DNA of 64,000 nucleotides, from contig NZ_WNXZ01000003.1 in NCBI RefSeq assembly GCF_009733845.1, forward strand, positions 248,001 through 312,000. Direction: 5' to 3'. Made by a program: the position numbers and the translations under genes. The notes below the pieces were generated by a model that searched no databases, was not told where the DNA came from, and was given only the letters and a program-made list of their open reading frames with translations. How positions within the stretch are numbered: the stretch's first letter is position 1; every line of letters starts with the position of its first letter. Positions 54,921-56,031 of this stretch are shown piece after piece. The stretch is from Pseudactinotalea terrae (GTDB taxonomy: Bacteria > Actinomycetota > Actinomycetes > Actinomycetales > Beutenbergiaceae).

Positions 54921-54996
54921 GGAAGGAAGCTGGCGCCAGATCGCCTGCCATGGCCTGGAGAGGGAGTCTCGGGGCTTCTGGCGCCAAGATCGTTCC
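54921..54996. repeat. 76-bp palindromic element, copy A
   Basis: Arms GGAAGGAAGCTGGCGCCAG (54921-54939) and CTGGCGCCAAGATCGTTCC (54978-54996) form an imperfect inverted repeat (15 of 19 pairs). A second element of identical length and arm type flanks the other side of the DUF559 gene at 55956-56031. Confidence 0.7.
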
Positions 54997-55095
54997 GGTT
55001 GGCGGTTGTCCACAGGGGCCCCGTCGATGCACCGCCGTCCACAGCACCCTCTGATCGGTGAGCGGCGACGTCCACGATGTCGCGAGCCTGCGCAC

Positions 55096-55968
55096 ATGGC
55101 TGCTCCCAAGATCCTGCTCCCGCCCTTGGTCCGCCGCGGCGAAGGCATCGTCAGTCCTGCCACGGTCTCCCGACACGTCGCCGCGGGTGGGCTGGTGCAG
55201 GTCCTCCCGGGCGTCCATCTGCGGACAGACGTCGCGACTGTTCCCGCATGGCGCGCAGCTGCTGTATCGGCGTGGCGCCCCAACTCTGTGCTGCTCGGAG
55301 AGATCGCGGGTCACCTGACCTTCTGGCGCGAGCTCAGGCCCGCGACGATCGAGGTCGCGCAGCACTCCACGCTGCGCCGGTCCGGCTTCCGTTTCGTGCG
55401 ACGCGAGATCCCGCACGACCTGGTGATCTACCAAGGAGCGACGCGGCTGACGGCTCCGGCGATGACGGCACTCGACCTCGCCGTGGCCACCGATGGGGAG
55501 TCCATCGACAACGTGCTGCGCGCCAAGATGGCCCGGATCCAGGATCTCGAGGCGGCGCTGGCGTTGACGCCCGGTCGGCTGGGGAACCGGGATCGCCGCC
55601 GGTTGCTCATGGACTCCCGCGCCGAACCCTGGTCGGTCGCCGAGCGCCTGTCGCACAAGATTCTGCACGCCGCCGGCATCACCGGGTGGAAGGCGAACCG
55701 ACCCATCGTGCTCGATGGTCACAGGTACTTCCTCGACATCGCGTTCTGGCCGATCCGGCTGGTGATCGAGATCGACGGCCGCCAGTTCCATATCGGCGCT
55801 GATGTCTTCGAGAGTGATCGCCTGCGACAGAACGCCCTCGTGCTGCGGCGCTGGACGGTGCTCCGCTTCACCTATCGGCGACTGGTCGAGGAGCCGGACC
55901 AGGTGCTTGCCGAGGTTCGGGCAGGCATCGAGCTTGCTCGGCTTCGGAAGCGCCTGGAACGTTTCTGA
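55096..55968 (+). CDS. DUF559-domain protein (Vsr-like nuclease fold)
   Basis: 290 residues from ATG 55096. The N-terminal part (about 1-70: [35 protein letters not shown]) looks like an AbiEi-type helix-turn-helix lead. The C-terminal DUF559 domain (about 185-285) has [37 protein letters not shown]...RFTY. The pattern Asp-(10)-EIDGRQFH...D/R..Q resembles the PD-(D/E)xK-like very-short-patch-repair fold. It is a frequent single gene in actinobacteria, with unproved nuclease function. Two 76-bp palindromes flank it. Confidence 0.85.
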
Positions 55969-56031
55969 CGCCAGCGCGCCGCCGACGCCTGTTCTGAGCC
56001 TGGGCAGCGATCCTGGCGTCAACGTCGTTCC
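55956..56031. repeat. 76-bp palindromic element, copy B
   Basis: Arms GGAACGTTTCTGACGCCAG (55956-55974) and CTGGCGTCAACGTCGTTCC (56013-56031), 15 of 19 paired. The left arm contains the last codons and stop of the DUF559 gene, so the element can also serve as its terminator. Confidence 0.7.

Follow-up and report, generated by a model that had tools for sequence, protein, structure and literature searches.

DUF559 genes bracketed by gene-specific palindromes in Pseudactinotalea terrae and its bacterial order

The systems formed by repetitive extragenic palindromic (REP) sequences and REP-associated tyrosine transposases (RAYTs) are described as a single gene bracketed by cognate repeats, with further copies dispersed outside genes and with co-evolution of the two; in one genome that was studied, REP doublet units of 71 and 110 bp are the two most frequent (PMC8266576, PMC3116915). 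AbiEi binds two 23-bp inverted repeats (PMC7319586), the homing endonuclease I-Bth0305I forms a dimer on a target almost 60 bp long (PMC3943268), and the DUF559-containing protein VsrA of Caulobacter (CCNA_02930), which damages DNA according to genetic evidence, has been linked to cytosine methylation and mismatch repair (PMC12907096). Here we analyse a DUF559 gene lying between two palindromes in a 64,000-nt stretch of the Pseudactinotalea terrae genome (NZ_WNXZ01000003.1, positions 248,001 to 312,000; hereafter the window). We show that DUF559 genes in this actinobacterial order are commonly bracketed by gene-specific palindromes or short inverted repeats, that the right repeat usually lies on or closely after the stop codon, and that certain repeat types are additionally found on their own between other genes. 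Our favoured reading, held with slightly better than even confidence, is that gene and palindromes constitute one module working like a REPtron (a REP-processing enzyme with its own REPs), with an unrelated enzyme.

The association between gene and palindrome is strong. The initial annotation placed two 76-nt palindromes with matching arms around the gene, the right one including the stop codon, and its coordinates and lengths are confirmed (Table 1). The half-sites read GGAAGGAAGCTGGCGCCAG.. and (reverse-complemented) GGAACGATCTTGGCGCCAG.. on the left and GGAACGTTTCTGACGCCAG.. and GGAACGACGTTGACGCCAG.. on the right, giving a type 1 consensus near GGAACG-A-YTGRCGCCAG of about 20 nt. The two spacers bear no relation to each other, and the arms alone are held in common. 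Stems with at least 15 of 19 complementary arm bases occur at five positions in the window, compared with 1, 0 and 1 in three mononucleotide shuffles; a 76-nt stem is by itself weak evidence, and it is the sequence common to both palindromes that exceeds chance. The shared arm pattern, TGRCGCCAG-N30..50-CTGGCGYCA, is found at exactly four places in the 4.76-Mb genome, each 56 nt long (reversed control, 0). Two of these flank the window gene and two are solo copies on other contigs (C8:72965 and C14:105337). No known RNA was matched in Rfam at the gathering threshold between 54500 and 56500.

The genome holds one other PF04480 gene (C9:246127), the protein of which is 68% identical to the window protein. 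Palindromes of another type, 77-79 nt long (GG.ACGAA-TCCACGCTCGATG..), flank it, and the right copy again holds the stop codon. This type 2 palindrome also occurs at four places, two at the gene and two solo, all 59 nt in the core, and is absent from both sister species. Each of these two related proteins thus has a private palindrome within the same genome. Further copies, for which the initial annotation proposed to search, exist, two solo for each type; in contrast to its picture, they do not adjoin DUF559 genes. By a rough open reading frame (ORF) heuristic, used for all gene orientations given here for solo copies and repeat clusters, two of the four solo copies lie between convergent genes; reading the ORFs would add L004 to these two.

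The same arrangement was sought in 100 DUF559 loci from the order, 99 of them distinct (L082 and L093 are one place), made up of 32 of the 33 matches of a first search (one had no locus), 28 new matches and 40 further ones in list order; they are better-scoring database matches rather than a random draw. Each locus was scored by the best local alignment, direct or inverted, between its two flanks, and 99 other long ORFs taken from the 40 larger loci were scored alike. With a threshold of 40, picked after both distributions had been seen, 53 of the 100 DUF559 loci and none of the 99 controls were positive, 23 of the positives falling among the 40 loci taken in list order; at a threshold of 36 the counts were 57/100 and 4/99. 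The window locus itself scores 26, because only the arms are common to its two palindromes, and the test therefore overlooks real cases. As far as association goes, there is good support for the earlier description of a nuclease gene with its own repeat target, and the proposed link with DUF559 in relatives stands insofar as these genes are bracketed by their own repeats; the palindromes differ from those of the window. DUF559 is carried by 122 of the 149 genomes sampled in the order. Two loci (L085 and L086) have the domain in very long open frames of 1610-1745 aa, another architecture, with no flank repeat by the test. Repeat orientation (direct at 32 and inverted at 21 of the 53 positive loci) was set aside as meaningless for self-palindromic repeats.

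Among these 53 loci, the stop codon falls within the right repeat in 23 cases; in 21 the repeat starts at most 60 nt after it, and in the other nine it lies elsewhere. In some flank pairs identity is complete or almost so (for example, 67 of 67 nt at L117), L063 has a perfect hairpin, and at L008, L009 and L011 the repeats are short tandem units of about 28 nt whose orientation on one side of the gene is the inverse of that on the other. Repeats seldom resemble one another between loci (4 of 1378 pairs), and the four look-alike pairs belong to proteins that are 94.5, 76, 60.5 and 55.6% identical. Many protein pairs at 45-68% identity already carry unlike repeats, so that repeat evolution outpaces that of the proteins. 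Two homologues in Pseudactinotalea suaedae (53 and 58% identical) lie between further versions of a 76-81-nt palindrome; from their identical proteins, they are probably loci L012 and L013 of the sister genome G002. More distantly, relatives at 33-34% identity in Tessaracoccus and another Propionibacteriaceae genome (L130-L132) carry palindromes of 81-83 nt immediately downstream of the gene, matched at L132 by one upstream. The family also reaches beyond PF04480, as a DUF559-like gene at L039:141-1208 has no Pfam match up to E 0.1 and is 43% identical to L014; the counts given here are accordingly lower bounds.

In the sister species G002, the repeat of locus L008 is present in 67 copies (at most 3 mismatches; reversed control, 0), 8 of them at the gene. 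Elsewhere, L008-type matches are degenerate and number four in the P. terrae genome and one in the other sister genome, G001. Among 20 L008-type clusters fetched from G002, 12 lie between convergent genes, five between tandem genes and three inside a long ORF, with none between divergent genes. Six of the cluster sites could be matched in P. terrae: five have no repeat there, with 13-51 nt between the genes, and the sixth has an unrelated local tandem array instead. This 52-nt tandem array (GTTGCRGAACCCACCGAACCGTCACTTCCGCAAC; C8:508735-508976), standing where G002 has an L008-type array, was considered as a third repeat type of the P. terrae genome and not counted in the system, being present in one place only and absent from G001 and G002. 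Similarly, the repeat of locus L097 has 26 matches (2 mismatches) in a 400-kb sample of genome G075 taken outside the gene, with none for the reversed control. Six of the elements involved are palindromes of 58 nt; five others, 190-671 nt in length, share the nested ends of the DUF559 unit and look like non-autonomous derivatives.

Several further observations concern the L008-type repeat. Within the window, a degenerate copy (3 mismatches) lies at 59425-59446 between convergent aldehyde-dehydrogenase-like and PurU-like genes, and G002 has a copy between the counterparts of these genes (L171). At L170 (G002:C15:437600-440800), a solo palindrome that is by eye of the L013 type (GGGCAGAAGT...ACTTCTGCCC) stands to the right of an L008-type array near position 1614, so that two repeat types share one intergenic gap. 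At L167 (G002:C14:163599-166405) and L163 (G002:C3:150744-151335), opposed L008-type arrays surround about 2.7 kb and 0.5 kb, respectively; the enclosed stretches are not the DUF559 gene, and these are possibly composite or decayed units.

The window gene lies between a divergent isocitrate dehydrogenase gene (icd) and a downstream malate dehydrogenase gene (mdh), both named by reading the ORFs. In G001 the icd-mdh interval has no gene, and the aligned flanks meet within about 130 nt; in G002 (L039) it holds a different DUF559-like gene with two palindromes per side and the stop codon in a palindrome. The idea of a small mobile cassette, also put forward in the initial annotation, is plausible. 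A second site, beside SURF1, holds different DUF559 units in P. terrae (L003) and G002 (L012), and the solo site L004 is empty in both sister genomes. Two further candidates were rejected as clean empty sites: at L007 G002 has about 100 nt of unrelated sequence, and at L133 the right flank is not conserved in G002.

The protein matches DUF559 (PF04480, E 7.5e-10) and MTES_1575 in Pfam, and the PADLOC AbiEi profile weakly (E 0.013). In an AlphaFold2 model (mean predicted local distance difference test score 86, predicted template modelling score 0.64), residues 2-175 resemble the AbiEi antitoxin 6y8q_D (Z 10.7, root-mean-square deviation 5.4 over 161 residues) and Mycobacterium tuberculosis Rv2827c (1zel; Z 7.8), and residues 178-283 resemble I-Bth0305I (3r3p; Z 12.8, root-mean-square deviation 2.0 over 96 residues) and Vsr (1cw0; Z 10.6). 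The protein is thus predicted to combine a DNA-binding domain of the AbiEi type with a nuclease resembling Vsr and I-Bth0305I. Across 96 aligned sequences, E183, D214, E225, D227, D241 and R244 are conserved at 93-99% and H232 at 85%, and these residues would form the active site. Searching 50,697 phage records with tblastn gave no match to the DUF559 protein, and 72,556 plasmid records gave a single one (Tsukamurella tyrosinosolvens NZ_LR134454.1:121908-122399, 37.6% over 59% of the query).

Table 1. Positions in the window of the DUF559 gene, its predicted parts and the two palindromes
Feature	Position	Strand	Remarks
Left 76-nt palindromic element, type 1	54921..54996	.	Two inverted half-sites of ~20 nt, spacer unconserved; imperfect arms 54921-54940/54977-54996, 80% complementary, 36 nt apart
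DUF559 gene, 290 aa	55096..55968	+	ATG at 55096, TGA at 55966-55968; predicted AbiEi-like N-terminal half and Vsr/I-Bth0305I-like nuclease
AbiEi-like part, residues 2-175	55099..55620	+	Putative DNA-binding region and second domain, from structure-model comparison and weak PADLOC AbiEi matches
Nuclease domain (predicted), residues 178-283	55627..55944	+	PF04480 E 7.5e-10; conserved E183 D214 E225 D227 H232 D241 R244
Right 76-nt palindromic element, type 1	55956..56031	.	Gene stop codon 55966-55968 inside; imperfect arms 55956-55974/56013-56031, 79% complementary, 38 nt apart

How, then, does this locus compare with the described systems? As in the published descriptions of the REPtron (RAYT/TnpA-REP), a gene is bracketed by its own palindromic repeats, the repeats are paired inverted half-sites with several types per genome, enzyme and repeat co-evolve, and repeats are dispersed outside genes (the solo copies in P. 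terrae and those in G002 and G075, not the L120 and L117 types discussed below). However, the enzyme predicted here is an AbiEi-Vsr-like nuclease whereas that of the REPtron is an HUH-superfamily tyrosine transposase, and the copy number of DUF559-linked repeats is often very low (two solo copies here). A further REPtron feature is a conserved GTAG/CGTC tag next to the stem; the half-sites listed for the palindromes here begin with GGAA or GGCA. As the defining HUH transposase is absent, the DUF559 module is not a member of the REPtrons. With AbiEi of the type IV toxin-antitoxin systems (Streptococcus agalactiae AbiEi and Rv2827c) it shares the predicted fold of residues 2-175, but the DUF559 protein would be fused to a nuclease, its repeats lie on both sides of the gene and elsewhere, and no AbiEii (DUF1814) toxin gene adjoins the window gene. 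With I-Bth0305I, an EDxHD homing endonuclease, and Vsr it shares the predicted fold of residues 178-283. Unlike I-Bth0305I, the window gene is not within an intron, has no match in the phage records and is bracketed by whole palindromes rather than splitting a target site. Caulobacter VsrA shares the DUF559 domain and differs in its link to methylation and mismatch repair; the comparison is by its description, the available part of which mentions no repeats.

If gene and palindromes do form a REPtron-like module, we propose that the protein would bind as a dimer, with its AbiEi-type N-terminal half contacting the two inverted half-sites of about 20-25 nt, and that the Vsr/I-Bth0305I-like nuclease would cut within the unconserved spacer or next to it. 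The break would be repaired from other copies, whereby the palindrome would be kept, moved or multiplied and the gene at times carried along between two palindromes. Protein and repeat would diverge together, and each gene would therefore have its own repeat. A dimer that reads the half-sites and cuts near the spacer would explain conserved arms with a free spacer; the model draws on the AbiEi repeats, which are close to the half-site in length, and on the I-Bth0305I target, which is close to the palindrome in length.

Several points weigh against this REPtron-like reading. Binding, cleavage and mobilisation are steps that we infer, the AlphaFold2 model was built from six sequences, and the Foldseek E-values of 0.0016 and 0.0025 are above 0.001. 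The flank test gave no shared repeat at 47 of the 100 loci, although it overlooks real cases. In 400-kb samples, the L120 type of genome G055 has one match against two for the reversed control (14-mer, 2 mismatches), and the L117 type of G065 has five, four being the gene's own palindromes and the other a 2-mismatch copy. Repeat spread is thus real but variable between types, since the L120 type is absent, the L117 type is essentially only at the gene, and those of G002 and G075 are dispersed. Finally, in a comparison with insertion sequences or transposons, empty sites are seen in relatives that are too diverged to define target-site duplications.

An unlikely alternative, the best placed of those considered, is a homing cassette, in which the palindrome is the nuclease target and the gene the mobile part. 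A cut solo palindrome would be repaired from a gene-bearing locus via the flanking palindromes, which would place the gene between two palindromes, and later recombination between these would delete the gene and leave a solo palindrome as a scar. The position of the gene between palindromes, with its stop codon in the right-hand one, the different units at the same two sites in sister species (L003/L012 and L002/L039), the empty icd-mdh interval of G001, and a modelled nuclease fold nearest to that of a homing endonuclease all agree with such a cycle. However, in the sister genomes the solo sites L004 and L007 are empty or hold unrelated sequence, never a DUF559 gene; intact targets next to an active gene would need protection from being cut; and copy numbers such as 67 are high for scars.

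It is less probable still, and in our view doubtful, that the repeats are regulatory only, the left palindrome serving as an operator through which the AbiEi-like domain represses its own gene, the right one as a terminator, and the solo copies as other regulated sites or as bidirectional terminators between convergent genes. AbiEi proteins are described as binding their paired 23-bp inverted repeats in their own promoter (PMC7319586), strong hairpins (score of at least 32) stand at the 3' end of 31 of 100 DUF559 genes and 4 of 99 controls, and the placement of L008-type clusters, often between convergent and never between divergent genes, would suit terminators. Yet an operator function calls neither for a copy of the same sequence downstream of the stop codon nor for dozens of species-specific copies where unrelated genes end. 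A consensus scan of 54700-56300 found neither an intrinsic (U-tract) terminator nor a sigma-70-like promoter, and the conserved nuclease would be left unexplained.

Defence, whereby the nuclease would restrict incoming DNA bearing the motif while the chromosomal palindromes are structured, modified or otherwise spared, we regard as very improbable: the nuclease domain weakly resembles portions of the anti-phage proteins ProA (E 0.011) and Hhe (E 0.022), but no methyltransferase, toxin or other partner gene adjoins it, its neighbours being isocitrate and malate dehydrogenase genes, the phage records contain no match, and the motif differs at almost every locus. Coincidence, that is, ordinary G+C-rich hairpins near a gene, deserves almost no credence even though single 76-nt stems of such quality are not rare in the window, as the sequence-specific genome counts against reversed controls of zero and the 53/100 against 0/99 loci refute it for the family.

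We found no report of DUF559 genes with cognate repeats in the available text of the open-access literature, most subscription papers being outside this scope. A broader reading, which we offer tentatively and at somewhat less than even confidence, is that AbiEi-fronted DUF559 genes drive a large class of selfish palindromes in Actinobacteria that has so far gone unrecognised. On this tentative proposal, a Vsr-like nuclease acting as a dimer and by hydrolysis would recognise paired half-sites and spread them by break repair, with a private repeat evolved for each gene, and the class would be a second, independently evolved counterpart of the RAYT/REPIN systems of Proteobacteria, with different chemistry. 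DUF559 is annotated as being of unknown function; if each gene drives its own repeat, the domain gains a role. If this is true, a class of species-specific palindromes in high-G+C bacteria would be explained, and many natural pairs of enzyme and target would become available for studying the co-evolution of DNA recognition. Furthermore, a test would become possible of whether a nuclease and repair suffice to spread REP-like repeats without a transposase.
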